Part shown: positions 647-48,147 of the stretch, one piece after another | Layout of the letters: each line of letters starts with the position of its first letter | Position numbering within the stretch: position 1 is the stretch's first letter | Assembly: GCA_029775915.1 (NCBI GenBank) | Contig: JARVKA010000002.1 | Location: forward strand, 1-64,000 | Direction of reading: 5' to 3' | Length of the DNA stretch: 64,000 nucleotides | Source: Nitrososphaeria archaeon | GTDB taxonomy: Archaea > Thermoproteota > Nitrososphaeria > Nitrososphaerales > JANXEG01 | Translations under genes and position numbers: made by a program | The notes under the pieces: generated by a model | What the model saw: only the letters and a program-made list of their open reading frames with translations | Told to the model about the DNA's origin: nothing | The model's database searches: none

Positions 647-967
647 ATGAATGGTCATAAATCTATAGCCGTTTCATTAAAGGATGAGGATGTGGCAACC
701 CCTCACTTAAAATTGAAACAATGGGGCTTTGAGAGTTTAAATGAGTATGTGAAAGGTATTGTTTCTGGTAAAATTTCAACTCCTCAACTCATAGATGAGT
801 TGGCTACACTTATAGCTGACAAAATTACTAGTAGGTTACTAGTAAAGGAATTGCCACTTTCCGTTAACGCTTTGAATTGCGAAGCATCTCAAAGGGTTAT
901 ATTGGTAGCCCGGGGCAGATTCGAACTGCCGTCACCGGCTCCAAAGGCCGGTATTCAAGGGTTTTAA
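647..967 (+). CDS. Short ORF running into tRNA-Gln; possible SSV-type integrase N-terminal fragment
   Basis: This 106-codon frame begins at ATG 647, after an in-frame stop at 632-634. Residues 5-45 look like a ribbon-helix-helix or small helical N-terminal domain (IAVSLKDEDV, then GFESLNEYVKGIVSGKI). The last approximately 20 codons are the complement of the 3' half of the tRNA-Gln gene (RGRFELPSPAPK). An ORF entering a tRNA from its 3' end and reading against it is exactly how the int(N) fragment of SSV-type integrases lies after integration. Frames through tRNA complements are often open by chance, so only the geometry and the N-terminal resemblance support this. No catalytic integrase residues are present. 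It could also be an unrelated orphan reading frame. Confidence 0.35.
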   Translation: MNGHKSIAVSLKDEDVATPHLKLKQWGFESLNEYVKGIVSGKISTPQLIDELATLIADKITSRLLVKELPLSVNALNCEASQRVILVARGRFELPSPAPKAGIQGF

Positions 968-1013
968 CCTTGCTTGACCGCTACACTCGGCGAATATTTT
1001 TCTCCACCGGGCT
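906..1013 (-). tRNA. tRNA-Gln(TTG) with two non-canonical introns
   Basis: The acceptor AGCCCGG pairs with CCGGGCT, the T arm is GGCAG-TTCGAAT-CTGCC, and the anticodon arm is CCGGC-CTTTGGA-GCCGG, giving anticodon TTG. To form a D arm (GTGT with GCAT), two inserts must be removed: 18 nt at 987-1004 between positions 9 and 10, and 17 nt at 954-970 between positions 24 and 25. The spliced length is 73 nt. CCA is encoded at 903-905. There is no intron at the canonical 37/38 site. The 3' half is identical to that of the tRNA-Gln(CTG) gene at 46166-46267. Confidence 0.88.
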
Positions 1014-1044
1014 TCCGAGCTACCACATATTAATATTATTAGGA

Positions 1045-2121
1045 TTATTGATTAAGTTTTCCCTTTATTATTGAATCGATAATTGTTAAAATCTTAACTA
1101 TTGGATCTTCCATTCTCTTCAAGATATTATCCGCCTTTTTCTTTAAATGTGATTTATACTTTTCATTCTCGAGTAGTTTCTCTAAAGTTTTTATCATATT
1201 ATCTATACTTTGGGGCTTAATTATCAATCCTTTTTTTATCAAATAATTTTCAACATAGTGAGATTTTTCGGGATATGCAGATATCGTTGGTATACCAAGT
1301 AAAGCCGATTCAGTATTCATAGTTCCTCCCATCCCTATGAATACATCTGTATGAATAAGTAAGTTAATACCATCAAAGCCATTCTTAGGGATTATGAGCT
1401 TCGATCCATAATGAGCTTCAATCTCTTTAATTTGCTCATCATACCTACATAAAACTACGATATTGCAATTTATGAATTGGGATGTGATTTTATTTAATAA
1501 ATCCATATAAGCATTTTTATTAATGTGAAGAAGGTATGAGGCTTTAACCTCTGGCAATCGAATGGTAATCGTTTTTTTAGATTTATCGAGGTTTAATTCA
1601 AGTCGATTTATTTGCTTTCTTCTTTTAATCCATACTACTGGATCTAAAGCTTTATACTTAATGATTCTCTCTTTCGATATTCCGTATTTAACCCATTCTG
1701 ATATCGGTATAATCCATGGTGTTAGTAAATAATGTGATAAAGGTATGGTAAGTTTTGATACACTCTCTGCATGAGGGGAATCACTAATACAAATATGCTT
1801 TATACCAAGACCATGGGATACACGAGCACACTCAGGTGAGCTGAAAGATATTGAACAATTTGGATTTTTTTCACTCACAATCTCAGCGAGTTGAATAATT
1901 CTCTTACTACTTGCAATAAGCTTTTGATAAAGATTATCACCACCATGCTCACCTATAAAATCAGCTTTAATATTAAATCTTTTAATTAATAATTCAACCT
2001 CTCGATAATGGCGAGAAGTTATTAATGTATAATAACCATTCTTCTCCAACTCTTGTATAAGTGGTTGGAAGAATAATACTTGCTTAGGCGTTAATATATC
2101 AATCCAAACTTTCAATTCCAT
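1045..2121 (-). CDS. DUF354 family protein (predicted glycosyltransferase/epimerase fold)
   Basis: The 358-residue protein opens with KVWIDILTPKQVLFFQPLI and continues with a histidine-containing GEHGGDNLYQK, then SFSSPECARVSHGLGIKHIC and ISDSPHAESVSKL. This series is typical of archaeal DUF354 proteins, whose fold resembles GT-B enzymes such as UDP-GlcNAc 2-epimerase. A C-terminal Rossmann-like part carries DVFIGMGGTMNTESALLGIPTISAYP, the kind of glycine-rich nucleotide-sugar site seen in GT-B folds. A role in surface polysaccharide or lipid glycosylation is inferred. The length fits the family. It stands alone, tail to head with tRNA-Gln. Confidence 0.8.
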   Translation of the reverse strand: MELKVWIDILTPKQVLFFQPLIQELEKNGYYTLITSRHYREVELLIKRFNIKADFIGEHGGDNLYQKLIASSKRIIQLAEIVSEKNPNCSISFSSPECARVSHGLGIKHICISDSPHAESVSKLTIPLSHYLLTPWIIPISEWVKYGISKERIIKYKALDPVVWIKRRKQINRLELNLDKSKKTITIRLPEVKASYLLHINKNAYMDLLNKITSQFINCNIVVLCRYDEQIKEIEAHYGSKLIIPKNGFDGINLLIHTDVFIGMGGTMNTESALLGIPTISAYPEKSHYVENYLIKKGLIIKPQSIDNMIKTLEKLLENEKYKSHLKKKADNILKRMEDPIVKILTIIDSIIKGKLNQ

Positions 2122-2211
2122 TTTTAATGATAAAAGGTTATTTAATTTTTTTACTCATTTATATTGAGATTTTACAATAAATTATCACTTATAATTATGT
2201 TATATTGTTCA

Positions 2212-2607
2212 TTACTTAAGCATACTAATTCCGATTGTTAAACCAGCAATTGAGACGATTATTAAAATCTTATAAAATAATGGTATTGCGATTAATGCAA
2301 GTAGTGAGATACCAACGCCCTCACTAAATCCCGTAATTAATCTAAGTTTATTATTACTAACTCTTATTCGCCAAGATTGTGTTACCCAATCTAGAATTAC
2401 CGGTATTGCTAATAAAATGCATAAAATTATTTGATAAGTAATTGGTAAGGAAAAAAAGAATGTGAGATTGAGATTGATAGATAAGATTGATAAGCTAATG
2501 AATCCTAAAATAACACCTGTACATCGAGCACAAAGCTTAATACTTTTACTCCCAAAGCTTATTGTAAACCAATGATTATGAGCTATTAATAACTCCCACA
2601 ACTTCAT
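2212..2607 (-). CDS. DUF2085 small membrane protein
   Basis: This 131-residue protein has about four hydrophobic segments. It shows the DUF2085 signature: CARCTGVILGF near residue 28, then DWVTQSWRIR followed by SNNKLRLITGFSEGVG. These cysteines and arginines are conserved across the family, whose function is unknown. Its start ATG shares one base with the stop of the preceding gene (TAATG), so the two are translationally coupled. Confidence 0.8.
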   Translation of the reverse strand: MKLWELLIAHNHWFTISFGSKSIKLCARCTGVILGFISLSILSINLNLTFFFSLPITYQIILCILLAIPVILDWVTQSWRIRVSNNKLRLITGFSEGVGISLLALIAIPLFYKILIIVSIAGLTIGISMLK

Positions 2608-3146
2608 TATGCAAGCACCTGCTTTTCACCACAATAAGGGCAATGAACAAAGTCTGAGAGTAACATTCTGCCACATTTCGCACAAGCCTTTAGAAAATGT
2701 ATCTTTAATGGTAAGCGAGCCTTTAAAGATTGTATTCGTGATCTAGCTTGCGGGCTGTATGTAGTTCTAATGAATGTTCCGCCACCTTCAACCTCAGTTA
2801 ACTCAAAAACAACACCACCCTCAACTCTGCTATTCATTTTGAGTAATCGAGGACTCATCTCTTCCACCACCTCAAATTTTGCACCTTTATTAGACTCTCT
2901 TTTAAAAATGCCTACATAGGATTGCTTAACTTCTTCACGCTCCCACTCTTTTGTAAACCCTTTTATAAGCTCAAAAGTATTTGAGATGCTTTGTGGAGTG
3001 AACCATACATCCATTTCAAAATATCCCGTTAAAGCTCTACTATCAGCGCGTTGTCGAAGCATAGGCATGAGCATACAACATATTAATAAGGGTAAGAGAA
3101 GTAAGAGGCTTTCAAAACCAGCTTGCAATATAAGGTTAGACATCAT
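2607..3146 (-). CDS. Membrane-anchored protein with C-terminal zinc ribbon
   Basis: The protein has 179 residues. Residues 5-30 form one transmembrane helix (SLLLLLPLLICCMLMPML). A middle domain of about 110 residues, with many beta-strand-like hydrophobic and charged alternations, resembles START/SRPBCC-type folds (FEMDVWFTP, FELTEVEGGGTFIRTTY). The C-terminus is a zinc ribbon, CAKCGRMLLSDFVHCPYCGEK. I do not recognise a named family. It is coupled to the DUF2085 gene by a one-base overlap, so a shared membrane process is likely but unknown. Confidence 0.65.
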   Translation of the reverse strand: MMSNLILQAGFESLLLLLPLLICCMLMPMLRQRADSRALTGYFEMDVWFTPQSISNTFELIKGFTKEWEREEVKQSYVGIFKRESNKGAKFEVVEEMSPRLLKMNSRVEGGVVFELTEVEGGGTFIRTTYSPQARSRIQSLKARLPLKIHFLKACAKCGRMLLSDFVHCPYCGEKQVLA

Positions 3147-3378
3147 TATTTATTATGCACGTCCCCAATTGGCTAAAGGTAATAATAATACTTAAAGTTT
3201 CTTATTCTGCAATAAGCTTTGGGATAAAATAAAAAGATTCATAAGATTTGCTAAAAGATTGTAAGAGATCTTTAAAATACAGCATGTTTTTAGATAATTA
3301 AATAACAACTCAATAAAGATTACATTGTAATAGATTTAATAGGGTTACTTTCAAATACCTCAGCTGCATAATTTAATA

Positions 3379-4713
3379 ATGATCTTAAGGAAGGTTAGAA
3401 TGTTTAAAAGTACTATAAAATGGTTAAGTGATGTAATTCCTATTGAAAATTTAGGAGAGTTAGCGAAAAGTATTGAGGTTGTGAGTAAATCTTCATCAAA
3501 CTTATGCTTACTTTGCAAAGGCAGTCGTATGCTTTGTGGTAAGGTTCGATGTCCAATTATAATAAAAGCTCAATCTATAGTTAAGTATGAGTCTTTGCTC
3601 AAGGATCATATTCATGGCTCTACTCCGCCAAGTGTGTTTGTAGGTAGAATAGGTTATCCAAAGGTGTATATTGGCCCCATGGTACCTCCATACTTTGGTG
3701 GGACTGAGATACTTGATACACCTGAAGTTTGGATTGGTAAATCGATTGATGAAATTATAGATTATCGCTTTTCTTTAATCCGTGGTAAGGTAAGAGCGAG
3801 TATTTTTAATGTTCGAAAAAGTGATCGATTGCTCGATACATTGCAAGAGCTTGCGATGGGTAAGGAGCCAATAGATGCAGAAGTAATATTCATGAAAAAA
3901 CCTAGAAAGGTATTGAGTTTAAGTGAAGAAACTCAACCATTTGGGCCTTCAGCACCGTTAAAATCATTAAAAGTAGGTAATGTAAGTGTAGATCGAAGGA
4001 TCGAGAATGCCTTTTATGATCGTGATTTAAAAGCAAGTGATGCTATTTACAAACTTTACGATGAGGGAGTACTCATTACTAAAATACAAAGGGCTTTTAG
4101 CATGGGTATGTTTGGTATTGGAGTATATAGAAAACTCGTTCCTACGAGGTGGAGTATTACAGCCGTTGATAGCATTATATCTATGAAATTGATAAATGAG
4201 ATAAAGCAGTATGAGAGTATTAATGAATATCGAGTTTATAGTTTCAAAAATCTTGATAATATTTTCATTGTGATCTTAATGCCTGAAAAATGGTGCTTTG
4301 AATGGATTGAGGCTTGGTTTCCAAAAACGGTATGGAATGTAAAGAGTAAAACGCCAATATTAATGGGCGATTATGAAAGTTATTGGGGTAGAACAACTTA
4401 TGCGAGTGTTGGTGGGTGCTATTATGCAGCCCGTTTTGCTGTAGCTGAAAAATTAAGAATGGAGAGAAGGCAAGCATCAGCATTATTATTAAGAGAGATA
4501 CATCCTGGCTATATATTACCAGTTGGTGTATGGAATGTAAGAGAGAGTGTTAGAAGGGCTTTAAAAAATAATCCAATGAAGTTTGATAATTTAAATACAG
4601 CGTGGAAGTATGCTTGTACAAAATTAACAATTCCATCAAAGGATTGGATAGCAAATAGCTTCATTTTAAAACAAGCTTTCTTTCAAAAAAGAATAACAGA
4701 TTATTTAACTTGA
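3379..4713 (+). CDS. nreA: NreA-like archaeal DNA repair protein
   Basis: The 444-residue protein has a zinc-binding CLLCKGSRMLCGKVRCP near residue 43, then VFVGRIGYPKVYIGPMVPP, followed by conserved D-rich and R-rich segments, as in archaeal Nre proteins. Haloarchaeal NreA acts in DNA damage repair and binds PCNA through a C-terminal PIP box. Here the C-terminus ends ILKQAFFQKRITDYLT, whose Q and paired aromatic residues resemble a degenerate PIP motif. ATG 3400 (residue 8) is an alternative start preceded by a purine-rich AAGGAAGG. The gene is monocistronic. Confidence 0.82.
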   Translation: MILRKVRMFKSTIKWLSDVIPIENLGELAKSIEVVSKSSSNLCLLCKGSRMLCGKVRCPIIIKAQSIVKYESLLKDHIHGSTPPSVFVGRIGYPKVYIGPMVPPYFGGTEILDTPEVWIGKSIDEIIDYRFSLIRGKVRASIFNVRKSDRLLDTLQELAMGKEPIDAEVIFMKKPRKVLSLSEETQPFGPSAPLKSLKVGNVSVDRRIENAFYDRDLKASDAIYKLYDEGVLITKIQRAFSMGMFGIGVYRKLVPTRWSITAVDSIISMKLINEIKQYESINEYRVYSFKNLDNIFIVILMPEKWCFEWIEAWFPKTVWNVKSKTPILMGDYESYWGRTTYASVGGCYYAARFAVAEKLRMERRQASALLLREIHPGYILPVGVWNVRESVRRALKNNPMKFDNLNTAWKYACTKLTIPSKDWIANSFILKQAFFQKRITDYLT

Positions 4714-4797
4714 AGGAATCATAAAATTCTGATTAAGTTTTTAATAGTAAAATCTATTCGTTTGCTCCTTACAAAATTAAAAGATAATTTACGAATT

Positions 4798-5966
4798 TTA
4801 TATAAGAAATGGTATGTAAATAATCATATTTACACTTGTTATTAAACCACCATACTTTAAAAATTCATTAAACCTTATTGTCGTCTTCATTCTTGATTCC
4901 AAGTATTCAAGTATAATTATATTCGAGGCTGCGCCTAAAATTGTTAAATTACCAGCGATTGTTGAGGCTACAGCTAAAGTGAGCCATGCATTAACATCAT
5001 TAACATCATATTTCAAACTCTCCATATACCTTACGAAAAGTTTAGCGAAAGGAACATTACTTATCAATTGACTTAATGTAATTGATGCAAGCGATATGCT
5101 AATGATACTCAAAATTCCACCACTTTTAGAATTTAATAATATCGTAAGTAGTGGTGTTAAAATACCGCTTCTCCAAATCCCTTCCATAGTTACAAACATG
5201 GTTATAAAGAAAATTATTGTACCCCAATCAACACTTGATATTAATTTTCTTGGATTACTTGAGAATGGGTAAATACCAGCTGCTATAATGAATGGTATAA
5301 ATCCTTTTTTACTAATATATGGCATATTTAAAAGCTCGAGGATATCATTTGTAATAAGTATCATTATGGATAAAGTTAATCCAACAGCTGCTAATATCGC
5401 ATCTCTACGATCACGTAAAGCTTCATGAGGAATTAAAATTAATTTTACTTCACTCTCCTCAACTTTAAACACTTTCATGAGAAGGTGTGATGTTATAAAA
5501 AGATTTAACAACGTTGGTATAAAAAGTTTATAAAAGAAGGTGATAATGGAGCTTTCATACCAGATCCAATAGTTATTAAAATATTTTGAGGATTTCCTAT
5601 AGGTGTCATAGTTGAGCCTATAGTTATTGAAAAGGCGAGTAAGAGAAACATCATTTTCGGCTTTATTTTAGCCACTCTAGATATTGTGTAAGCTATTGGT
5701 GGGCCCATTAACGCAATAGTATCATTAACAGCTACAGCAGCTAATAAACCAAACATTAATGATGATCCATAAATCAAAGCTTTTTTATGCTTAAACTTGC
5801 TTATAAACCACGTTGCAATTGCATTAAGCAATCCAGAAGATTCTGCAAGTCCAACCATACTAAACATACCGATTAAGAATAATATCACATCCATATCTAT
5901 AATAATCCCAAGATCATCAAAATTAACAAGATTAAAAATTACTGTAATGAATGCTGTAAATGACAT
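4798..5966 (-). pseudogene. ArsB/NhaD/SLC13-type ion permease, frameshifted
   Basis: Two adjacent frames make one permease. Codons 5966-5505 hold NDTIALMGPP and TPIGNPQNI, and codons 5511-4798 hold GNLTILGAASNIIILE, the two pseudo-symmetric GNxxxxGxxxN motifs of the COG1055 family. One extra T in the T5 run (plus-strand A5 at 5521-5525) would rejoin them as FINFFIPTLLNLFI. Upstream, codons back to about 6080 stay open in frame and encode a plausible first helix (GFATLLLLIITLIIRGK) but offer no ATG, GTG or TTG. The gene is therefore either a recent pseudogene or carries homopolymer sequencing errors. The transported ion cannot be told (Na+/H+, arsenite or anion). Confidence 0.75.
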
Positions 5967-6291
5967 TATACTCCATATTGGGATGCGTGTTACCTTGCCT
6001 CTAATAATTAATGTGATAATTAGGAGTAAAAGAGTAGCAAATCCTATGATCGCATTGTATAAATTGCTTATTGTGAGCGTTGCTTAACACCGCTTGTATT
6101 ACTATTAAACTTTTATAAAAATGATTACCTTAATATTATTAAGCTATAAAATTAGCTTAATAGCTAAATTAAAAATGAATATCTTCTTAAATTTAAAATC
6201 CCATCATATAAGTATTGATTTTATTAAAGCTAATGCTCTAAAAGAATTTTTAAGTTTATATTATTGTTGTGTCTTTATTATAGAGATTTAT

Positions 6292-6522
6292 ATGGTATCA
6301 GCATGTGTTCTTATCCGCTCTGAAAGAGGAAAGTCTGATGAAGTTTTAAATAGATTGAGACAAATACCAGGGGTAGTTAAAGCTTTTTCATCATTAGGAA
6401 GGTATGATGTAGTTATTCAACTTGAAGCTCCTAATTACAAAGTTTTAGGTCAAACGATTCTTAGAATGGGCGCCATATCTGGCGTTATATTCACAGAGAC
6501 TCTTATTGAGGTTGAGAGGTGA
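6292..6522 (+). CDS. Stand-alone Lrp/AsnC ligand-binding (RAM) domain protein
   Basis: Starting at ATG 6292, the 76 residues form a single RAM domain: ACVLIRSERGKSDEV, IPGVVKAFSSLGRYDVVIQLEAP, then a C-terminal TETLIEVER strand. The upstream open frame back to 6121 is low complexity and probably untranslated. There is no helix-turn-helix. Such free-standing RAM proteins bind amino acids or co-assemble with full-length Lrp proteins. It is followed four bases later by a second copy, probably one operon. Confidence 0.82.
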   Translation: MVSACVLIRSERGKSDEVLNRLRQIPGVVKAFSSLGRYDVVIQLEAPNYKVLGQTILRMGAISGVIFTETLIEVER

Positions 6523-6526
6523 TAAT

Positions 6527-6751
6527 ATGCTGAATGGTGTTATTTTAATAAAGACTTGGACGATTCGTACAGAAGATGTTTTAAAAGAGGTTCAAAAAAT
6601 ACCTGAAGTTAAGAAAGCATTCATAACATATGGAAGATTCGATATTTGTGCTTTTATAGAAGTGCCAAATTATGACACAATTAAATCAATAGTAAATAAA
6701 GTAAATGCATTGGAAGCTGTAAGAAGTACGGAAACGTTAATCGAAGCATAA
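6527..6751 (+). CDS. Second stand-alone RAM domain protein
   Basis: The 74-residue protein starts at ATG 6527, placed by the GAGGTGAT site at 6515-6522 inside the end of the preceding gene. The fold signature repeats that of its neighbour: GVILIKTWTIRTEDVLKEV, IPEVKKAFITYGRFDICAFIEVP, ending RSTETLIEA. Sequence identity between the two is modest, so they are probably old paralogues or heteromer partners. No DNA-binding domain is present. Ligand unknown. Confidence 0.82.
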   Translation: MLNGVILIKTWTIRTEDVLKEVQKIPEVKKAFITYGRFDICAFIEVPNYDTIKSIVNKVNALEAVRSTETLIEA

Positions 6752-6768
6752 GGGTTAAAATTAATAAC

Positions 6769-9446: not shown

Positions 9447-9550
9447 TTCTCAAAAAAATTTGGTGATAAGCTTTATTTATGCTTATATTGAATAAAGTAA
9501 TTACTTTTTAAAGAATATCCTTATATATGATCTAAAATAAGATAGAAATT
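9447..9550. promoter_or_regulatory. Divergent promoter region korA / acyl-CoA dehydrogenase
   Basis: This 104-base spacer separates korA (minus) from the acyl-CoA dehydrogenase gene (plus). On the plus strand CCTTATATATG at 9519-9529 lies about 26 bases before ATG 9551, predicting a leaderless transcript. On the minus strand an A/T-rich CATAAATAAAGC box near 9472-9483 precedes korA. I see no obvious operator palindrome. Confidence 0.55.
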
Positions 9551-26184: not shown

Positions 26185-26317
26185 CGCCGGGGGTGGGATT
26201 CGAACCCACGAGACCTCGAATGAGGTCACAGGCTTTCTATTATGAACTCAAGGCTTACGCTCCTTATGGAACTGCGCATTATTGTGTATTCTCATAGTCC
26301 ACTCTGCCACCCCGGCA
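26185..26317 (-). tRNA. tRNA-Ser(TGA) with three introns
   Basis: The acceptor GCCGGGG pairs with CCCCGGC, the discriminator is G, the T arm is GTGGG-TTCGAAT-CCCAC and the long class II variable arm is GACCTC-ATTC-GAGGTC. A sound D arm and anticodon arm (CAGGC-CTTGAGA-GCCTG) form only after removing three inserts: 15 nt at 26280-26294 in the D loop, 17 nt at 26255-26271 between positions 29 and 30, and 12 nt at 26235-26246 at the canonical 37/38 site. The spliced length is 89 nt. CCA is not encoded. Confidence 0.88.
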
Positions 26318-30677: not shown

Positions 30678-30780
30678 TGGACCGGGAGGGACTCGAACCC
30701 TCGACCACCCGAGTTCTTGGCTTAAATGCTTGCAAGTCGGGTTTTAGAGTTTTGCAATTCTACCCCTGAACTACCGGCCC
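30678..30780 (-). tRNA. tRNA-Ala(TGC) with two introns
   Basis: The acceptor GGGCCGG pairs with CCGGTCC (one G-T), the T arm is GAGGG-TTCGAGT-CCCTC and the anticodon arm is CCCGA-CTTGCAA-TCGGG. Two inserts must be removed: about 14 nt around 30742-30756, between the D arm and the anticodon stem, and 17 nt around 30713-30730 at or next to position 37/38. The spliced length is 72 nt. CCA is not encoded. Confidence 0.85.
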
Positions 30781-35006: not shown

Positions 35007-35098
35007 TGCGGTCGCCGGGATTTGAACCCGGGTCGTCAGCTTGGAGGGCTTACACGCCGATTGGCTTGATGTCCTAGACCAGGCTAGACGACGACCGC
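35007..35098 (-). tRNA. tRNA-Gly(TCC) with one non-canonical intron
   Basis: The acceptor GCGGTCG pairs with CGACCGC, the T arm is CCGGG-TTCAAAT-CCCGG, the D stem is GTCT with GGAC. The anticodon stem TCAGC with GCTGA forms only when a 17-nt insert at 35050-35066 between positions 29 and 30 is removed. The loop is CCTCCAA, so anticodon TCC is preceded by C33 rather than the near-universal T33. The spliced length is 75 nt. CCA is not encoded. Confidence 0.85.
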
Positions 35099-37612: not shown

Positions 37613-37705
37613 GGGCCCGTAGCCTAGTATGGATAGGGCGTCGAAATTAAATATTGCGCAAGCCTTCGGAGCCGAAGGTCGTGGGTTCAAATCCCACCGG
37701 GCCCG
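37613..37705 (+). tRNA. tRNA-Arg(TCG) with one non-canonical intron
   Basis: The acceptor GGGCCCG pairs with CGGGCCC, the T arm is GTGGG-TTCAAAT-CCCAC. The anticodon arm TCGGC-CTTCGGA-GCCGA forms after removing an 18-nt insert at 37644-37661 between positions 29 and 30. The spliced length is 75 nt. CCA is encoded at 37706-37708. No canonical 37/38 intron. Confidence 0.88.
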
Positions 37706-38537: not shown

Positions 38538-39776
38538 ATGTCTTCTGTGCCTTCTGAAAAAGTTGATAGACGTGCATATTTAAAGTATCTCGCATCATTC
38601 ATTGTTGGTGCAGTAATATTTGGTGGCGGTATAGCTGCATATTATTCATCATTACCACCGAGAAAAGAAGTTGTAACAGAAACTGTGAAAACAACAGTAA
38701 CAGGGCCTACTGTAACACAAACCATTACTGTAACAGTTACACAAACTCCTACACCAACATTCACACCACCCCCTAAGCCAGCGAAAATGACATGGAATGC
38801 TAATACATCAGAACCAGGAACTGTAGGCTATATAGCAATAGCTGCAATAGCAGATTTAGTAACAAAAACTTATCCAGATGTATTAGAAGTTCTTCCAATA
38901 TCGGTTGGAGGCGCAACAACTACAGTTAAGGTTTGGGATAGAGGCGAAGGCCATAGTTGTTACAATACATTGCAACATCTTTGGCAAGTGAAGGTTGGAG
39001 CAGGACCCTTTGATCCAGCACAATATAAGATGAAAAGGGCGAATGAATTTTGGCAAGTCTTATGGATGTATCCTTTAATATACTTTGGTATGATTAGAGC
39101 TGCAGATGCTGGTAAGATAAAATCTTGGAGTGATTTTGCTGGAAGAGCGGTATTTCCAACACCACCCGGTTATGGGAGTCATGAAGTATTTAGAGCGGTA
39201 TTTGGTAAAGATGGATTGAATATTATTGATAAAATGGATTTAAAAAGTATGAGTGTTGAAGCAGCTGCAGATAATTTAAAAATGGGTGTAATGGATGTAT
39301 GTTGGGCTTATTGTGATCCTGGAGCTTTAGCAAAATGGTGCATGGATGTAGATGTTAGAGTAGGAGTTGCTGTAGTTCCACCGACTGAAGAGGAATTGAA
39401 AAAAGCTTTAGCAGCTGGTCCATGGTTAAGTAAATATAAAGTGGATCCAAGTACTTTATTCACAAGCCCCCTCGCTAAAGCAACAAAACCATTTGATACT
39501 GTGGCGATGCCATTCGGTATAGCTGCAGGTAAAGATGTTAGTGATGCTCATGTGTATTATTTTGTAAAAGCAGTATTTGAGAAGAAGGAGGAGCTTGGTA
39601 AGGTAGTCGCCACATTTACTGACTTTGCTAAAAGAGGTCTTGAATGGAATATTGAGGTCTTTAAGGATCAATCCAAGCCACCTATATCCACACCTATTCA
39701 TCCTGGAGTAGCTTTATACTTAAGAGAGAAGGGATATAATCCAGAAGCTCTTGGGATACTCGTAGGGAAGAGATAG
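38538..39776 (+). CDS. TRAP transporter solute receptor, TAXI family
   Basis: The 412-residue protein has an N-terminal anchor with a Tat-like twin arginine (DRRAYLKYLASF, helix 17-37), a Thr/Pro/Val-rich linker (about 42-80) and a substrate-binding domain (GTVGYIAIAAIADLVTKTYP, NEFWQVLWMYPLIYFGMI, CWAYCDPGALAKWCM). TAXI receptors capture dicarboxylates or other organic acids outside the cell and hand them to the fused TRAP permease. No AXA cleavage site is clear, so it is probably membrane-tethered. The permease gene starts 6 bases after its stop. Confidence 0.9.
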   Translation: MSSVPSEKVDRRAYLKYLASFIVGAVIFGGGIAAYYSSLPPRKEVVTETVKTTVTGPTVTQTITVTVTQTPTPTFTPPPKPAKMTWNANTSEPGTVGYIAIAAIADLVTKTYPDVLEVLPISVGGATTTVKVWDRGEGHSCYNTLQHLWQVKVGAGPFDPAQYKMKRANEFWQVLWMYPLIYFGMIRAADAGKIKSWSDFAGRAVFPTPPGYGSHEVFRAVFGKDGLNIIDKMDLKSMSVEAAADNLKMGVMDVCWAYCDPGALAKWCMDVDVRVGVAVVPPTEEELKKALAAGPWLSKYKVDPSTLFTSPLAKATKPFDTVAMPFGIAAGKDVSDAHVYYFVKAVFEKKEELGKVVATFTDFAKRGLEWNIEVFKDQSKPPISTPIHPGVALYLREKGYNPEALGILVGKR

Positions 39777-39782
39777 ATTGTA

Positions 39783-41777
39783 ATGAGTGGGGTAAGTTCA
39801 TCAAAACCCCTCCCATCTTTTTTTAAAAGTAAGGTAGGAATCGCTTATCTTTTGGTATGCACGATACTTGTAGCTTGGGTTTTATGGTATGCAGCTAAAC
39901 CAACGATAGAGAGGCAATTAATGAGTATAGTTTTTCTCCATATTTGCATCATAATGCTTGCAATACGATCATGGATTTTTGAAGAGTATGGAATCTTTAA
40001 AATGAGAGGAAAGATTAACAAAATTTTATGCACAATCTTCACAATCTTATCCATTTTTATAATGGTGTATTTTATAAGTCAATATTATGAGTTAACCTAT
40101 TGGAGAGCTGGTGCTCCCAATATAATCGATATAATACTTGGTGGTATTGCAATGATTCTCGTTCTTGAAACTGCAAGGAAAGATACTGGCTATTGGATAC
40201 CAATTATAGTCATCATATTCTTAATTTATGGTTATATAGGTAGTTACATGCCAGGTATGCTTCGCCATATAGGATTTGGATTATTCAGACTTATAGAGAT
40301 TTGTAGTGTAGAGTTGGGTATTGGTATATACGGATCACTCACTGGAATTGCTGCAACATGGATTGCAGCTTTTGTAATGTTTGCTGGATTAGCTTCAGGA
40401 TTTGGAGCTTTAGATGGCATAATAAAGCTAGCCAAGTATGTGGCCGCAAAATGGAAGTATGGTATACCACAAACAGGTGTAATTGCCAGTATGTTCTTTG
40501 GTATGTGCTCCGGAAGTGCTCCAGCGAATGTTGCTGGAACAGGTAGCTTTACAATACCATTGAATAAGAGTTATGGCATACCTGCGAAGTTCGCTGGAGC
40601 GATAGAAGCGGTAGCATCCTCAGGGGGTTTAATCATGCCTCCTATAATGGGTGCTGCAGCTTTTATAATAGCTGCATATCTTGGAACAACGTATTGGCAT
40701 ATAGTTTTAGTCGCTTTTCCCGCAGCTTTTCTCTATTATACTACAACAGCTTTCTCAGTTTATCTTATAAGTTTGAGATATATGAAGAATATCGTTGTTA
40801 AACTTGAAGTGGAACCTTTATCCCTCATTATTAAAGAGTTATCTCCTTTAATCATCGGGTTGATTGTATTGATTTACTTTTTAGCTCAACTTTATGATCC
40901 TTTAATTGCAGGCTTTTACGCTATTTTAACACTTTTAATAACCTCATTCATTTTATTCTTAATAAAATTCTATAAAAGTGGAGGATTGAAAAAGGTTTTA
41001 AAAGAATATGGTAAAGGCTTTATAGGTGGTATAGTAAATGGTGCAGAGATAGCCGCTACAACAGGGATTATGCTAGCTGCGATTATGATGATAGTTTCAG
41101 TTTTAACGGTATCAGGCTTAGGTGTTAAGCTTTCTATGGGCATGGTTTATATCTCAGGAGGTAATCTCATATTATTATCGTTACTTGTTGCTATTGTTTG
41201 TATAGTATTTGGTATGGGTGTATCAGCAACAGCTGCATACATACTAACTGTAGTGATAGCAGCTCCCGCATTCATAGCGATAGGTGTTAATCCATTGAGT
41301 GCTCATTTTTATGTTTTCTATTTTTCAATTTTATCCGCTATAACACCACCAGTAGCGATAGCAGCTGTTGTAGCATCTAGAATCTCAGGAGCTCCCTATT
41401 TCCAAGTTTGTATCGAATCGATTAAAATCGGTATAACACTCTTTATTTTACCAATTATATTCATTATGTATCCTGATATTCTTGCTTTAAATATAAACAC
41501 ATTAAGAATCTTCATCTTCTTATTAATCACATTTTGGGGCTTAAGCGTGGGTATGTATGGTTTTGAAGTTTATCCTGGGAGATTTGGTTTAATTATGAGG
41601 GTTGGAATACTCGCGCTATCCCTTTTCACATTAATAGCCCCTATTTATATCGGTTGGTTAATCACTTACATTTTATTATTCATACTGCTACTTTTAACCG
41701 TATCTAAAGTTGTAGGCGCACAATTAATCACACGAATTATTGGCACTAGCTTAAAACTGGATAAGTCTAAAGATTAA
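39783..41777 (+). CDS. TRAP transporter fused permease (4TM/12TM)
   Basis: The 664-residue membrane protein fuses the small (DctQ-like) and large (DctM-like) subunits. DctM signatures include FGMCSGSAPANVAGTGSFTIPLNKSYGIPAKFAGAIEAVASSGG, GLIMPPIMGAAAFIIAAYLG and later VFGMGVSATAAYILTVVIAAPA and SAITPPVAIAAVVASRISGAPY. About 18 hydrophobic segments. It uses an ion gradient to import the ligand of the adjacent TAXI receptor. Confidence 0.93.
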   Translation: MSGVSSSKPLPSFFKSKVGIAYLLVCTILVAWVLWYAAKPTIERQLMSIVFLHICIIMLAIRSWIFEEYGIFKMRGKINKILCTIFTILSIFIMVYFISQYYELTYWRAGAPNIIDIILGGIAMILVLETARKDTGYWIPIIVIIFLIYGYIGSYMPGMLRHIGFGLFRLIEICSVELGIGIYGSLTGIAATWIAAFVMFAGLASGFGALDGIIKLAKYVAAKWKYGIPQTGVIASMFFGMCSGSAPANVAGTGSFTIPLNKSYGIPAKFAGAIEAVASSGGLIMPPIMGAAAFIIAAYLGTTYWHIVLVAFPAAFLYYTTTAFSVYLISLRYMKNIVVKLEVEPLSLIIKELSPLIIGLIVLIYFLAQLYDPLIAGFYAILTLLITSFILFLIKFYKSGGLKKVLKEYGKGFIGGIVNGAEIAATTGIMLAAIMMIVSVLTVSGLGVKLSMGMVYISGGNLILLSLLVAIVCIVFGMGVSATAAYILTVVIAAPAFIAIGVNPLSAHFYVFYFSILSAITPPVAIAAVVASRISGAPYFQVCIESIKIGITLFILPIIFIMYPDILALNINTLRIFIFLLITFWGLSVGMYGFEVYPGRFGLIMRVGILALSLFTLIAPIYIGWLITYILLFILLLLTVSKVVGAQLITRIIGTSLKLDKSKD

Positions 41778-41843
41778 AGTTATTAATTCATCCACTTAAC
41801 TTTCCATTTATCTATAGCTTATTCCTTTTAATTTTTAAAAGGA

Positions 41844-42761
41844 TTATCTTCCTAAAATCTCACCAACAGTAAGATTAATTGATGAAACGTATTGAGTTGC
41901 AGATATTTTGGGAGAGTTAATAGGTTGAACTCTCTTTACTAATATGCTACCTTCTTTTGTAGCAACAATAAAGCCTTCATCTGTTATTTTCACAACCTCT
42001 CCAGGTTTTGCACCCTCAAAAACTGATCGTTTCTCACAATCGAATATTTTAAGCTTTTTCCCTCTAAAGTAAGTGGTAGCTCCAGGTTGGGGATTTGTCC
42101 CTCGAATTAAATTATAAACTTTTTGTACTGATTGTGACCAATCGATTATTGCATGCTCTTCACGACATGGTGGCTCATAAGTAGCTTGTGATTCATCTTG
42201 AGGGATTTTAGGTGCTATACCTTTCTCAATCATCTCTATAGCTTCTATCATAGCCTCAACACCCAATGGAAAGAGTTTATTGTAGTATAAAGAACCCGCA
42301 GTATCATCAGGCTCAATCTCTACCTCTTTTTGAAGTAAAATAGGTCCAGTATCAATACCAGCATCAGGCCAAAATATAGTTATTCCAGTTTTTGTTTCAC
42401 CATTTATTATAGCCCAATTTATAGCACTCGCACCACGATGCTTAGGTAATAAGGATGGATGATATTCAATAGTCCCCAATCTTGGCAATTCAATAATAGA
42501 TATAGGTATAATATCAGTAACGTAAGCCATAACTCCTAAATCTGGTGATAAACTTTTATAAATTTCATAAACTTTAGGATCACGCCAATTTTGAGGTTGA
42601 AATAATGGAATATTGAGCGCTAATGCTGAATCTTTTAATGGGTTTGGTCGATTAGGAATATCTGGATTTGTAAATACTCCCACAACTTCCCATCCTTTAT
42701 TAAGAATTGCTTTTAATACAGCTTCACCAAAAGCAGCTCTACCTATTAATGTGATACGCAT
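41844..42761 (-). CDS. 10-formyltetrahydrofolate hydrolase-like formyltransferase
   Basis: The 305-residue protein has the formyltransferase core with catalytic His and Asp: EYHPSLLPKHRGASAINW and DAGIDTGPILLQKEVEIEPDD, plus a C-terminal OB domain (PGEVVKITDEGFIVATKEGS). These segments resemble the hydrolase domain of 10-formyl-THF dehydrogenase (ALDH1L) more than bacterial Met-tRNA formyltransferase. Archaea do not formylate initiator Met-tRNA, so a folate or nucleotide-sugar formyl reaction is more likely. The product could be formate. No partner ACP or aldehyde dehydrogenase domain is present. Confidence 0.78.
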   Translation of the reverse strand: MRITLIGRAAFGEAVLKAILNKGWEVVGVFTNPDIPNRPNPLKDSALALNIPLFQPQNWRDPKVYEIYKSLSPDLGVMAYVTDIIPISIIELPRLGTIEYHPSLLPKHRGASAINWAIINGETKTGITIFWPDAGIDTGPILLQKEVEIEPDDTAGSLYYNKLFPLGVEAMIEAIEMIEKGIAPKIPQDESQATYEPPCREEHAIIDWSQSVQKVYNLIRGTNPQPGATTYFRGKKLKIFDCEKRSVFEGAKPGEVVKITDEGFIVATKEGSILVKRVQPINSPKISATQYVSSINLTVGEILGR

Positions 42762-42881
42762 AATTCACCTCTTCTAAAAATTCTCTCCGTAGTTTTTATC
42801 CTTTTCCTCGCTAAAGCTGATTATTTATAAATTAAAATTTCGTGACAATCTTTTTAAATTTGCAACCTTTTACATAAATTT

Positions 42882-43196
42882 TTGGTGCAGTATTTGGAAG
42901 AGCAATATACAATCAATGTTAAAGTAAAATATTTTGCACAAATGAGAGATATTACAGGTAAGAAAGAGGATATACTTAATCTTACAAAAGGTTCAACGAT
43001 ACACGATGTGTTAAATGAGTTATGTAAAATGTTTGGTGATGAAATGAGAAAATACCTCTTTAAAAATGATAATCAATTACGTGAAGAGTTACAAATATTG
43101 GTGAATGGTTTATCTATCGATTCATCAACCCTTCATAAAAAGAATCTTTTGAATGGAGATACTATAGTAATTATACCCCCTGTTGGAGGAGGCTAA
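42882..43196 (+). CDS. MoaD/ThiS-like ubiquitin-fold sulfur carrier
   Basis: The 104-residue protein starts at TTG 42882 or GTG 42885. It has a beta-grasp fold pattern (INVKVKYFAQMRDITGKKEDILNL, GSTIHDVLNELCKMFG) and ends IIPPVGGG, with the terminal Gly-Gly used for activation by an E1-like enzyme. It may serve molybdopterin or tungstopterin synthesis (needed by the formate dehydrogenase here), tRNA thiolation, or SAMP-type protein conjugation. A methylthiotransferase gene follows 24 bases later. Confidence 0.88.
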   Translation: MVQYLEEQYTINVKVKYFAQMRDITGKKEDILNLTKGSTIHDVLNELCKMFGDEMRKYLFKNDNQLREELQILVNGLSIDSSTLHKKNLLNGDTIVIIPPVGGG

Positions 43197-43220
43197 AAGA
43201 AAGATTGTGAGATAAGGGTG

Positions 43221-44489
43221 ATGAGAGCATATATTGAAGTTTATGGTTGTAGTGCAAATGTAGCAGATTGTGAGATGATAATGGGTTTATTAAAAGAAGC
43301 TGGTTTTCAATTCGTTAATAATGAATATGAAGCTGATGTTAATTTAATCGTTACTTGTACAGTAAAAACACCAACTTCACAAAGAATGGTATATAGAATT
43401 AAGAAATTGACTGAAACAAAAAAGCCTTTAATTGTAGCGGGATGTATGCCAAAGACTGAAAAACAATTAATTGAAAGAATAAATCCTCACGCTAGTCTTG
43501 TAGGACCTAATGCAATACATAAAATAGTTGATGCAGCTATTAATGCAATCCATGGTTGTGAAAGTGTCTTTATTGAGGATTTGAATATTCCAAAGTTGCA
43601 CCTCCCAAGAGTTAGAGTTAATCCCATAATAGGTATAATAGAAATTGCTAATGGATGTTTAAGTAAATGTAGTTTTTGCCAAGTAAAGCTTGCAAGAGGC
43701 AATCTCATAAGTTACTCAATAAGTGATATAGTGAGAGAGGCGAGAGATTCTATAAATGAAGGTTGTAAAGAATTATGGATAACATCCCAAGATAATGGAT
43801 GTTATGGAATGGATATTGGAACTAATCTCCCACAACTTTTAAATGAATTATGCAAAATTGATGGTAATTTTTACATTAGAGTGGGTATGATGAATCCACA
43901 ATTCACACTCAAGATTCTTAATGAGTTAATAGAAGTGTATAAAAATCCAAAAATCTTTAAATTTCTTCACTTACCGTTACAAAGTGGTAGTGATAGAATA
44001 TTAAGGTTAATGAGAAGAGGTTATACATCAGAACAATTTCTATACATAGTTCAAAAGTTTAAGAGTGAAATTAATCATTTAACTCTTAGTACAGATGTAA
44101 TTGTAGGTTTCCCAACGGAAGATGATGAAGATTTTCAAATGACTATTAATTTATTAGAGCAAGCTAAACCAGATATTGTGAATATTTCACGATTCGGTCC
44201 TCGACCAGGGACTGAAGCAGCACACTTTCCTCAATTAAGTAATGAGTTAATAAAGAAAAGAAGTAAAGAACTTCATCAAATTACGAGAAGGATATCATTA
44301 GAAAATAATAAAAGATGGATTGGATGGTGCGGAAGAGTAATTATTGATGAGATTGTTAATAACGGAGTTGTAGGTAGGAATTTTGCTTATAAGCCCATCT
44401 TTATAAATTCCAAATTGCCATTGGGTATGGAATTTAATGTGAAAATCATAAATGTGACATCTTCATGTTTATTAGGTGAAATAAACTGA
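43221..44489 (+). CDS. tRNA methylthiotransferase, archaeal MtaB/CDKAL1-type (MiaB family)
   Basis: From ATG 43221 (after AAGGGTG) the 422-residue enzyme has the N-terminal MTTase cysteines (YGCSANVADCEM, TCTVKTPTSQRM, AGCMPKTEK), the radical SAM motif CLSKCSFCQVKLARG, HLPLQSGSDRILRLMRRGYT and TDVIVGFPTEDDEDF, and a C-terminal TRAM-like domain. It adds a methylthio group to t6A37 of tRNAs that read ANN codons, using two [4Fe-4S] clusters. It lies next to a MoaD-like protein, which could be a sulfur donor by context. Confidence 0.92.
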   Translation: MRAYIEVYGCSANVADCEMIMGLLKEAGFQFVNNEYEADVNLIVTCTVKTPTSQRMVYRIKKLTETKKPLIVAGCMPKTEKQLIERINPHASLVGPNAIHKIVDAAINAIHGCESVFIEDLNIPKLHLPRVRVNPIIGIIEIANGCLSKCSFCQVKLARGNLISYSISDIVREARDSINEGCKELWITSQDNGCYGMDIGTNLPQLLNELCKIDGNFYIRVGMMNPQFTLKILNELIEVYKNPKIFKFLHLPLQSGSDRILRLMRRGYTSEQFLYIVQKFKSEINHLTLSTDVIVGFPTEDDEDFQMTINLLEQAKPDIVNISRFGPRPGTEAAHFPQLSNELIKKRSKELHQITRRISLENNKRWIGWCGRVIIDEIVNNGVVGRNFAYKPIFINSKLPLGMEFNVKIINVTSSCLLGEIN

Positions 44490-44635
44490 ATTGTAAAATG
44501 TACTTGAAGCTAATATATCAAAAAGCGACGTAATGCCAAAGCTCATACAAATAATTTACTAGAGCATTTATCCCTTGACCATCTTTAAATAGTTTTTAAT
44601 AAGATGTTCAATATCTATGAAATTTGCTTAACATT

Positions 44636-44665
44636 ATGAGTTTCACTTTATTTTTTTAAACTCAT
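44636..44665 (+). repeat. Short inverted repeat upstream of the FtsZ-like gene
   Basis: ATGAGTTT at 44636-44643 is complementary to AAACTCAT at 44658-44665 with a T-rich 14-base spacer. It lies between the methylthiotransferase and FtsZ-like genes and could be a 3'-end hairpin or an operator. An 8-bp stem is weak evidence in such AT-rich DNA. Confidence 0.3.
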
Positions 44666-44722
44666 TGTATATTTTATTATCTCTAATATGTTAAATATAA
44701 AGTTAAAAAACAATTATTCGTA

Positions 44723-45778
44723 ATGATTACTGGGGTTACAATCGATTTATTAAGTTTTTTAAACACACCATCTTATCGCAATAGAGTTTTAGCTATAGGT
44801 ATTGGTACTGCAGGTTGTAGAATAGCATCCCAACTTCAACATATGAGTAGTTCAATTGGTAAATTTATTTATGTAAGTTGTGATGAACAAGACTTTCCAC
44901 AAATTGGTGAGAGAATTTTAATACCATTAGGAGTTTTAGGAAAATTATCTCCAAAGGTTGTAAGAGGTGCTGCATTGAAATATTTAAAAAATATTGATGA
45001 GTTAATGAAAGATTCCTTCTTAATCTTTCTTATTTCAGGGCTTGGTGGTAGTGTAGGTACTGGATTAGCACCCCTGTTAGCTGAGCGCATTCATAAATCT
45101 GGAGCACTTGGCGTTGGCATATTTACTATGCCATTCAAATTTGAGAAAGATAAGCACTTTTATTCAGCTATTACATTACAGAGATTAAAAGGCTTAATGG
45201 ATGCGATGATAATTATCGATAATGATGAGATTTTAGAGAGTATGAAAGAGTTACCCATAATCGATAGTTATAAATCCATAAATCGATTAATAGCCTCAGC
45301 TTTAAACTCTATGATTGAAGCTTCGGCTGAATCTGGACTCAATGTAGGTATTAGAAAATTTATTGATACTGTTAAGTGCAATGGTTATTCAATTTTATGC
45401 TTAAGCCAATCATCATCAATTAATCGAGGTGAAGAAGCGATTATAGGAGCAATTCACTCATTATATCGAGTAGCAGATCCTGAGAAAGCTACAAAAGCGA
45501 TTTTATTCCTAATGGGTGGGAGTGTATCTTTAAATGAGGTTTCTACAGTGATTTCTCGATTAAATTCACTTGTAGGAAATGGTGCGGTAGAAATTCATTA
45601 TGGAGTGAATAATAATTTAAGTACAAATTCTTTACTTACAGTAGCGTTACTGACATCCGGATTTCCAAAAACAAAGTTTGATGATTATGACCCTTTTGCA
45701 AAAATTCCCTATAATATAGATGATGAAGTGGATATATCTATCGATTTAGAGCTACCTAAGTTAGAGAGAATAGATTGA
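44723..45778 (+). CDS. Divergent FtsZ/tubulin-like protein
   Basis: The 351-residue protein follows FtsZ order: LAIGIGTAGCRIASQLQHM at the N-terminus, then the G-box region FLISGLGGSVGTGLAPLLAE (residues 102-121), GVGIFTMPFKFE, and NVGIRKFIDTV with CLSQSSSINRGEEAI. Canonical FtsZ has GGGTGTG, but residues 108-114 here are GGSVGTG. The T7 loop NxDxxD is NVGIRK (207-212), lacking both catalytic aspartates. It probably binds nucleotide weakly and hydrolyses poorly. No cell-division partners adjoin. It may be a scaffold or a divergent TACK-archaeal FtsZ. Confidence 0.82.
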   Translation: MITGVTIDLLSFLNTPSYRNRVLAIGIGTAGCRIASQLQHMSSSIGKFIYVSCDEQDFPQIGERILIPLGVLGKLSPKVVRGAALKYLKNIDELMKDSFLIFLISGLGGSVGTGLAPLLAERIHKSGALGVGIFTMPFKFEKDKHFYSAITLQRLKGLMDAMIIIDNDEILESMKELPIIDSYKSINRLIASALNSMIEASAESGLNVGIRKFIDTVKCNGYSILCLSQSSSINRGEEAIIGAIHSLYRVADPEKATKAILFLMGGSVSLNEVSTVISRLNSLVGNGAVEIHYGVNNNLSTNSLLTVALLTSGFPKTKFDDYDPFAKIPYNIDDEVDISIDLELPKLERID

Positions 45779-46025
45779 TAAATTAATAATGAAAATCAAT
45801 CGAATAAGATTAGTTAATTAAAAACTTCTAAAGAAAGCTCATAGTTTCAAATAGAGGTAGCTAATATGTAATGAAAATTTTTAACTTTTTATATATCATC
45901 ATTCGATTTTTGCCTCATAAATGTATTTAAAAATGAGTGAAAAATAATCCTTTCCCATTTTTCTCTTTTATGTTTTAATATAGACTCATAAAATGGGAAT
46001 GATTAAAAGAGTTGTGTGAGTGATG

Positions 46026-46088
46026 ATTAGTGTTAGATTCAGTGTTGTGAGTAAGAAAAATTATTTTTTCTAAAAATCTAACACTAAT
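46026..46088 (+). repeat. Terminal-inverted-repeat element, copy 1
   Basis: A 63-bp unit begins ATTAGTGTTAGATT (46026-46039) and ends with its perfect complement AATCTAACACTAAT (46075-46088). The middle includes GTGAGTAAG, AAAAATTATTTTTTC and AAAAATC. The same unit, inverted, occurs at 57221-57288. There is no coding capacity and no clear target duplication. It could be a miniature transposon (MITE-like) or a structured RNA. It lies between the FtsZ-like gene and tRNA-Gln(CTG). Confidence 0.75.
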
Positions 46089-46165
46089 TTACGAAGTTTT
46101 TAAATTTATTATAAAGCTGGCATAGAACCTTAATGCAAAAATACAATGATATGGGATAAAAATGG

Positions 46166-46267
46166 TAGCCCGGGGCAGATTCGAACTGCCGTCACCGGCT
46201 AACCCCTATTAAAGATCCAGAGGCCGGTATCCTTAGCCCTTGGGGTTGGCCGCTAGACCACCGGGCT
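46166..46267 (-). tRNA. tRNA-Gln(CTG) with two introns
   Basis: The acceptor AGCCCGG pairs with CCGGGCT, and the T arm is GGCAG-TTCGAAT-CTGCC. The anticodon arm CCGGC-CTCTGGA-GCCGG forms after removing a 16-nt insert at 46201-46216 at the canonical 37/38 site. A D arm (GTCT with GGAT) forms after removing 13 nt at 46233-46245 between positions 21 and 22. The spliced length is 73 nt. CCA is encoded at 46163-46165. Confidence 0.9.
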
Positions 46268-46969
46268 AACCACAAATAAATTAAGTAAAGGTTCGATTAA
46301 GCATTTTCCTATAATTTGATTCATAAAGAGTTTTTAAAGTATGATGCGATTTTAAAGGTTCGTGAATCATCACCAGATTTAACAGCAACTGGTGTAAATA
46401 CATCTCTCTTTTAATTCCCTTTATTGGGATTTCCCTTATGAATCCGATACCTTTTCTTGCCTTTTTTGACTGGAGGGGCTCTTTTCTTAGCGTTTTGCCG
46501 ACCACTCTTCGATTATCTATTAATTGCAAAACCCTTTATAAAGATAATCGAGAAAATAATTAATTAATTAAGCTTTTCATTAAACTCTAAAAACTACTAT
46601 ATATACAAATTTTTTTCATTTCTTTAATGAATGGTTTTATTCATATACTACACATAAAGCCAACAGAAAGATAGCCAAGAGAAACATGAAGAATATATTC
46701 TGAAAGAGCTTAATGTAAAAATGCAAGGATATTACTCAAATTTACTGGTATAATAAAAATGTTCTTCGTATCATTATGCTTACAAACTTGCAAAATATAC
46801 TAAATAGATCTATATATTAATTAAAGACCATATTAAAAGAGTCTTAAACACATAAAAATTATGAAAGAATAAAATATCCCATAATAAAACTATAAACAAA
46901 AATTTTGCAAGATGGATATAAACAAATATGCTACAGTGAAAGTTTAAAAGAAGGTGATATTATTCTTCT
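46268..46969. other. Gene-poor stretch with an uncertain 82-codon frame
   Basis: A minus-strand frame at 46281-46529 encodes a basic peptide (KKARKGIGFIREIPIKG) matching nothing I know; a neighbouring frame over the same bases is also partly open, so it may be a decayed gene. The remaining 440 bases are AT-rich with stops in all frames. No RNA gene or repeat recognised. Confidence 0.4.
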
Positions 46970-47709
46970 TTAGTTATTAAGCTTCTTAGCCACTCTGAAT
47001 TTTGGTGAAATTCCATTAACGAGTTTTCCAGCTTCATAGAGAAGTTTTTCATAATTTAGCTCCGTGTATTCATGGATATGTTTCTCAATTTGGCTAAGTT
47101 ACTATGCTAACGGCCATCTGACTATTCATCAAGTTCGCTTCAGCGATTCTAAGCGGGTAGTCTGAATAATATTCAACTAACCCAAGCCTCTTAGCAAAAA
47201 CTATGTGGCGGCATATATTCAGCATAGCTTTTATCGCCTTATGCATGGCTCTTTCAAATGCGTAGATCCTTTCTCAATAGAAGCTTCTTATCAATATGTG
47301 GGTCTTCTTTCAACCATAAATTGCACAGATACTCATAATCAGTGTTGTAAACAAGATAATTCTTTATGACATCGATAATAAGTGCACTTTCCGTATCATC
47401 TTTATCTACAAGTTTTATGCCTTGAGTTAAAATTTTATATTTTTAAGGTAAACCAGCTTTTTCAATATCCACAATATCCACTTTATTCTCAGGAACCTTT
47501 AAAGCTCTCGCAATCTCACTTATTAAGATAACCATAATGCTAAAATCTTCTTTAGACCTCAATTTTAAGGCTAAGTTAACATCGTGAGCGCTAAAGCCCT
47601 CAGCCACGGAGCCAAATAAGTATGCAAGAACAACATCATATCCGTTGAGAAGTTGCCGCAAAGACTCTATACACTTAATCCTAGAAATCTTGAAGAAGGA
47701 ATGCATCAA
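46970..47709 (-). pseudogene. Decayed MntA-HepT (nucleotidyltransferase-HEPN) toxin-antitoxin pair
   Basis: From ATG 47709 the frame shows a minimal nucleotidyltransferase: YLFGSVAEGFSAHDVNLAL, in which the catalytic DxD is DxN. An in-frame stop at 47443-47445 is followed in the same frame by KYKILTQGIKLVDKDDTES and NYLVYNTDYEY, the rest of MntA. Then, near 47273, a HEPN protein begins (ERIYAFERAMHKAIKAMLNI, RHIVFAKRLGLVEYYSDYP), broken by stops, with its tail HEYTELNYEKLLYEAGKL in another frame. In intact systems MntA AMPylates and neutralises HepT ribonuclease. Both halves are dead here. Confidence 0.72.
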
Positions 47710-48054
47710 AAATTCCGAGAAGTTTCCACGGAACTACGCAAGAAGGTTAAGGTTCACGAGAAGGTGGAAGCTTAAGGCATTGGCTTCCGAACTCGATTGA
47801 TTGCGTCTAGGAGACTGGAGCTGTTACAACCTTTCGCAACAGTCATTATAGATTTCTATAACGCCGCCCATGGAGTAATTTAGAACGCCTATTGAAATTT
47901 CTTATGACATCCCTACTCATTATTCTGAGATATCTTTTCGGCCAATGTCGAGGTATTTAGACTATCCCCACTTCTTAACATCCCTTCTCGATCAATCTAG
48001 TTAGTTGCTTTACCATTGAGGTAGGAATAAGGTATATTTATACTTGTGGTATAG
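47710..48054. other. Gene-free stretch of unusual composition
   Basis: The segment is richer in G+C than its surroundings, with a short plus-strand frame from 47701 (24 codons). Stops interrupt all frames and I recognise no protein, repeat or RNA. The composition suggests foreign origin, like the adjoining dead toxin-antitoxin locus. Confidence 0.35.
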
Positions 48055-48147
48055 CGCCCTGGCCGGGATTTGAACCCGGGTCGGAGCGGTGACAGCGCCC
48101 CATACTCGACCGGATTGTACGAACCAAGTTCTCTATACTACCAGGGC
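48055..48147 (-). tRNA. tRNA-Asp(GTC) with a D-loop intron
   Basis: The acceptor GCCCTGG pairs with CCAGGGC, the T arm is CCGGG-TTCAAAT-CCCGG and the anticodon arm is GGGCG-CTGTCAC-CGCTC, giving GTC. The D arm (GTAT with GTAT, loop containing GGTC) forms after removing a 20-nt insert at 48113-48132 around position 15/16. The spliced length is 73 nt. CCA is not encoded. The canonical 37/38 site is uninterrupted. Confidence 0.88.

Follow-up and report, generated by a model that had tools for sequence, protein, structure and literature searches.

The 64,000-nucleotide stretch analyzed here (the window; positions 1 to 64,000 of contig JARVKA010000002.1) contains seven transfer RNA (tRNA) genes between positions 906 and 48147, and all seven are interrupted by short inserts. 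We are highly confident that these inserts, 12 in all, are archaeal introns of the bulge-helix-bulge (BHB) type, that the window samples a mostly interrupted genome, and that much of this intron load was probably gained within one lineage of the Nitrososphaeria. Scanning for a T arm combined with an acceptor stem recovers exactly seven tRNA genes, and these are the same seven, with the same anticodons and the same total of 12 introns, that an earlier note on this DNA had described as interrupted without exception. There are two introns in Gln(TTG), three in Ser(TGA), two in Ala(TGC), one each in Gly(TCC) and Arg(TCG), two in Gln(CTG), and one in Asp(GTC). The note was also right that most are non-canonical, as nine of the 12 lie outside position 37/38 and three, those of Ser(TGA), Ala(TGC), and Gln(CTG), occupy it. 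The inserts measure 12–18 nucleotides (nt), which agrees with the lower but not the upper end of the 12–20 nt range given previously, and of the sites named there the D loop, 21/22, 24/25, and 29/30 hold, but 9/10 does not, the Gln(TTG) intron being solved at 10/11.

The gene structures come from a solver in which the T arm and acceptor stem are fixed, candidate introns that fit a BHB are removed, and the cloverleaf is then scored, with ARAGORN, which is independent of the solver, used as a check on both spliced and unspliced forms. After splicing, ARAGORN recognizes each of the seven window genes as a tRNA of full length that carries the expected anticodon; before splicing it reads none of the seven correctly (four are missed and three misread). 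In the raw window sequence ARAGORN and the Rfam gathering thresholds each yield three matches, none of those from ARAGORN being correct. The BHB search that the earlier note had proposed for the junctions finds at least three of the four central pairs at 11 of the 12. When the acceptor stem and T arm are retained and the interior is shuffled (100 shuffles per gene), the real score is reached by 0 of 100 shuffles in six of the seven genes. The seventh, Ser(TGA), is not separated by this test (19 of 100 shuffles reach its two-intron score) because the solver used there allows at most two introns and this gene has three. Its structure rests on a three-intron solution, on ARAGORN applied to the spliced form, and on the matching arrangement of inserts in G001, a genome of the same genus. 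Matches to HPnc0260, transfer-messenger RNA, Plastid-ycf2, and SpF41 were rejected as below threshold and overlapping tRNA genes, and microRNA and the remaining matches were dropped as weak.

All of the genes and introns lie on the minus strand except those of Arg(TCG). The tRNA-Gln(TTG) gene (906..1013) is read by ARAGORN as tRNA-Gln(ttg) in its spliced form of 73 nt and is not found unspliced. Its 10/11 intron (986..1003; 18 nt, AGAAAAATATTCGCCGAG; four of four central and three inner pairs) has a 19 nt counterpart at the same site in G001, and its 24/25 intron (954..970; 17 nt, AGGTTAAAACCCTTGAA; four of four central, three outer, and three inner pairs) has one of 16 nt. In tRNA-Ser(TGA) (26185..26316; spliced 86 nt, ARAGORN tRNA-Ser(tga)) the D-loop intron, at about 20/21 (26281..26297; 17 nt; three of four central pairs), has less certain borders and a homologue in G001, the 29/30 intron (26255..26271; 17 nt, TTCCATAAGGAGCGTAA; four of four central pairs) occupies the same site in G001 with 18 nt, and the 37/38 intron (26235..26246; 12 nt), which has a relaxed motif with two of four central pairs, corresponds on visual inspection to an insert of the same length in G001. 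The tRNA-Ala(TGC) gene (30678..30780; spliced 72 nt, ARAGORN tRNA-Ala(tgc)) contains introns at 25/26 (30743..30756; 14 nt; four of four central and three outer pairs) and at 37/38 (30714..30730; 17 nt; four of four central, three outer, and two inner pairs), both present in G001. The single intron of tRNA-Gly(TCC) (35007..35098; spliced 75 nt, ARAGORN tRNA-Gly(tcc)) is at 29/30 (35050..35066; 17 nt; four of four central, two outer, and three inner pairs) and is also present in G001. The anticodon loop of this tRNA is CCTCCAA, with C33 in place of the near-universal T33; C33 also occurs in the Gly(CCC) and Arg(TCT) genes of the same genome and in Gly(TCC) of the relatives G041 and G044, and G001 has T33. 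In tRNA-Arg(TCG) (37613..37705, plus strand; spliced 75 nt, ARAGORN tRNA-Arg(tcg); misread as Phe(aaa) unspliced) the 29/30 intron (37644..37661, plus strand; 18 nt; four of four central, three outer, and three inner pairs) is found in G001, as are those of tRNA-Gln(CTG) (46166..46267; spliced 73 nt, ARAGORN tRNA-Gln(ctg)) at 21/22 (46233..46245; 13 nt; four of four central pairs) and 37/38 (46201..46216; 16 nt; four of four central and three outer pairs). Finally, tRNA-Asp(GTC) (48055..48147; spliced 75 nt, ARAGORN tRNA-Asp(gtc)) has a D-loop intron at 15/16 (48115..48132; 18 nt, AGAACTTGGTTCGTACAA; four of four central and four inner pairs), of which G001 has a 27 nt version.

The genome to which the window belongs (G000) and G001 have 49 intron sites in common, including all 12 of the window, and intron length differs at 30 of the 49. 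The shared introns are 77% identical and the exons 98.4% identical over 26 genes. Within the introns, identity is 92% for bases in the central helix vs. 78% in the intron middle, a comparison in which junctions were placed by BHB fit for G000 and G001 alike and, in Ser(TGA) of G001, the borders of the D-loop and 37/38 introns were aligned by eye to those of G000. Such conservation is typical of spacers that are spliced out and constrained by the pairing of their ends. Two-sided changes in the central helix of Val(CAC) reflect a register shift and were not counted as covariation. It is highly improbable that splicing is unnecessary and that the mature tRNAs instead keep the inserts, in the form of enlarged D loops or additional arms. 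ARAGORN does read one unspliced stretch, 48054-48130, as an Asp tRNA, but this read begins 17 nt inside the gene and is without the 5′ acceptor strand. Moreover, inserts at 29/30 split anticodon stems and those at 37/38 split anticodon loops, which makes a normal anticodon arm impossible, and insert length differs between close relatives even though the exons are 98% identical.

Interrupted tRNA genes are the rule throughout G000, which comprises 1.47 Mb in 10 contigs and is 99% complete. Its tRNA list was assembled from Rfam, pattern, and similarity searches plus sequence stretches fetched around candidates, and the introns were resolved by the solver and by hand. There are 43 tRNA genes with 61 introns in 37 of them (1.42 introns per gene), six genes having three introns apiece. 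Only 14 introns are at 37/38 and 47 are non-canonical, including T-loop introns in His and Leu(TAA) and an acceptor-stem intron at 5/6 of Ser(GGA) with a near-ideal BHB of four central, three outer, and four inner pairs. At least three of four central pairs are present in 59 of the 61, and ARAGORN accepts 42 of the 43 spliced genes, the sole exception being Gly(CCC), for which the extracted sequence is short at the 3′ end and the gene itself was solved separately; Ile2(CAT) is labeled Met, as expected from its CAT anticodon. The genes for Phe, Cys, Pro(TGG), Ser(GCT), Leu(TAG), and Ile2 are intronless. With 86% of the genes interrupted, a window in which all seven are interrupted should occur about one third of the time, and the window is a sample of the whole genome rather than a special cluster of interrupted tRNA genes. 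That these genes are decayed pseudogenes with intact copies elsewhere, which could sit in the gaps between 10 contigs, can hardly be correct given that the genome is 99% complete with no intact second copies found, that the spliced cloverleaves are intact, and that the structures are conserved in the same genus. The genome-wide search did not find Glu(CTC), Pro(CGG), or Thr(CGT) in G000, the first two of which exist in G001, and this may reflect loss, gaps, or heavier disruption. Each of the 43 genes that were found lies in one piece with its parts in the normal order, so that none of them is a split or permuted tRNA, although one of the three missing genes could be split.

The organism itself is a metagenome-assembled genome (MAG) of the Nitrososphaeria (Thaumarchaeota) and not a member of the Thermoproteales. 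Its EF-1alpha is 80% identical to those of Nitrososphaeria MAGs, and the EF-1alpha protein tree places the genome inside this class, with moderate support for its exact position. The earlier note regarded the intron load as an unusual mix with DnaK, GrpE, and an FtsZ-like protein. Pfam matches bear out the DnaK, GrpE, and tubulin/FtsZ-family proteins, but the mix is not unusual in a genome so placed. Such genes are ordinary in Thaumarchaeota/Nitrososphaeria, and so their co-occurrence with the intron load is no paradox.

The genome also encodes the machinery that such introns would need. Two splicing endonuclease genes are present, for a catalytic (alpha) and a structural (beta) subunit, where alpha aligns best to the chains of Sulfolobus, Aeropyrum, and Pyrobaculum and its beta partner is divergent. 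In the sequence alignment the alpha subunit carries an extra-loop lysine at Aeropyrum residue 44, which we take to be Lys44 of the loop. The extra loop has been linked to relaxed substrate choice (PMC12397907, PMC4033280). Separate subunit genes and the loop lysine point to a heteromeric (alpha-beta)2-type endonuclease of the broad-specificity crenarchaeal class, and a gene for the RtcB ligase is also present; assembly of the heterotetramer, cutting of relaxed motifs, and ligation are predictions from sequence. In each pre-tRNA, a four-pair helix flanked by two three-base bulges would form between the last bases ahead of the 5′ splice site and the intron's 3′ end. The (alpha-beta)2-type endonuclease would cleave the RNA at both bulges, leaving the exons for RtcB to join, and where introns are closely spaced, one would have to be removed before the next motif could form.

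Several points weigh against our interpretation. The BHB fit is partly circular, as the score that chooses the junctions rewards it, and the borders of some D-loop introns can slide. The least certain junctions in the window are those of the Ser(TGA) D loop and 37/38, the latter being the weakest of the 12. Splicing itself is deduced from the DNA letters. Furthermore, the same loop lysine occurs in G009, a relative with a low load, and thus the enzyme makes the load possible but does not explain or cause it.

How the load arose can be judged by comparison with more distant relatives, namely G041 (DRTY6_bin.138), the low-load outgroup G044 (DRTY6_bin.115), and G009, whose tRNA lists are incomplete and were solved automatically, such that totals are approximate. 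Of the 12 window introns, G041 has four and lacks six, and two are without a comparison. The shared ones, at the same sites, are both introns of Gln(CTG) and those of Gly(TCC) and Arg(TCG); both introns of Ala(TGC), that of Asp, and those of Ser(TGA), including the D-loop insert, are absent, and the Ser gene of G041 is instead interrupted by another intron at 8/9. The tRNAs found in G041 do not include Gln(TTG). No intron is present in 31 of the 37 tRNAs detected in G044, among them Ala(TGC), Arg(TCG), Gln(CTG), Gly(TCC), and Ser(TGA), and all nine window introns that can be compared there are missing (Asp and Gln(TTG) are outside its detected set). Most therefore look like lineage-specific gains, and stepwise gain toward this genus is the simplest reading, although its direction is deduced from this distribution and the branch support of the EF-1alpha tree is only moderate. 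We regard it as unlikely that the introns are ancestral to the Nitrososphaeria and were lost in other lineages. The four introns in common with G041 do indicate that part of the load predates the genus, but G044 lacks these four as well as the five of Ala and Ser, G009 lacks those of Ala (both), Ser, and Gly, and an ancestral origin would require widespread parallel loss.

Archaea overall have 0.21 introns per tRNA gene compared with 0.84 in the Thermoproteales, and the record holder, Pyrobaculum calidifontis, has 71 introns in 46 tRNA genes (PMC8450103). The earlier view that such a load is known mainly from the Thermoproteales is broadly correct, but non-canonical introns are also known from the Thaumarchaeota (PMC8450103) and Caldiarchaeum (PMC3293823). 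Like P. calidifontis, G000 has short and mostly non-canonical BHB introns, at most three per gene, at a density of 1.42 vs. 1.54 per gene, but it belongs to another class, the Nitrososphaeria. Caldiarchaeum subterraneum, from a related group, similarly has D-, V-, and T-arm introns, with several in some genes, but only 13 of its 45 tRNA genes are interrupted (PMC3293823) compared with 37 of 43 in G000. The non-canonical introns of the Thaumarchaeota, from the same broad group and with the same motif, number 107 over all surveyed genomes (PMC8450103) vs. about 47 in G000 alone. The mechanism is already known, and what is new is an unusually heavy instance of it, at near-record density in an unexpected lineage.

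In the Thermoproteales similar introns occur across tRNA species (PMC4033280, PMC4090602), having spread by copying between them (PMC4033280), whereas G000 has no cross-gene similarity clearly above that of shuffled sequences. No near-identical introns were found across isotypes in G000, where the best cross-gene pair scores 8 and shuffles reach 9. In G001 two pairs do stand above the shuffles, both of them between isoacceptors: the T-loop introns of Leu(TAG) and Leu(TAA) match at 22 of 24 positions and the 29/30 introns of Arg(TCG) and Arg(GCG) at 17 of 18. The Leu(TAG) gene of G000 is without the T-loop intron found in that of G001. Copying or gene conversion is thus seen between paralogues in G001 and spread across isotypes is not seen, although older cross-isotype copying could be hidden, the introns being short and fast-changing. 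We only tentatively suggest that tRNA-intron expansion in the Nitrososphaeria took place independently of the Thermoproteales, to near the archaeal maximum and mostly without cross-isotype copying, which would represent a second route of gain.

Other features of the genome include a repeat of the 3′ half of tRNA-Ile(GAT) beside a tyrosine integrase gene (G000:C5:95304-100445; L151 1293-2159, 6106-6450). That half of the gene contains no intron, and the region, which also holds a DNA methylase gene and an adjacent gene without a Pfam match, is likely an integrated element about 5 kb long. Contig breaks fall within tRNA-Thr genes (the ends of G000 C1, C3, and C7, and C5:11590), and an identical downstream flank lies behind one Thr(TGT) and one Thr(GGT) copy. 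Branching in the assembly or a mobile element may be behind this, and the first 9 kb of C7 contain no obvious integrase. At the end of another contig (G000:C4:220039-220514) there are eight matches to GTTTCAAGCC with a CRISPR-array-like spacing of 66–68 bases, and in the window a DctM-type TRAP permease gene adjoins that of an NMT1-like binding protein (38538-41777).

For annotation, the seven window genes are a warning that general-purpose tRNA finders fail on most tRNAs of such genomes, either missing or misreading them. The origin of the introns in archaeal tRNA genes is unsettled, and this clade, in which the number of introns per tRNA gene goes from about 1.4 through an intermediate value to about 0.16 in relatives at growing distance and many sites are apparently empty in neighboring lineages, allows direct tests of the rate of intron gain, the preference for target sites, and the source of the introns.

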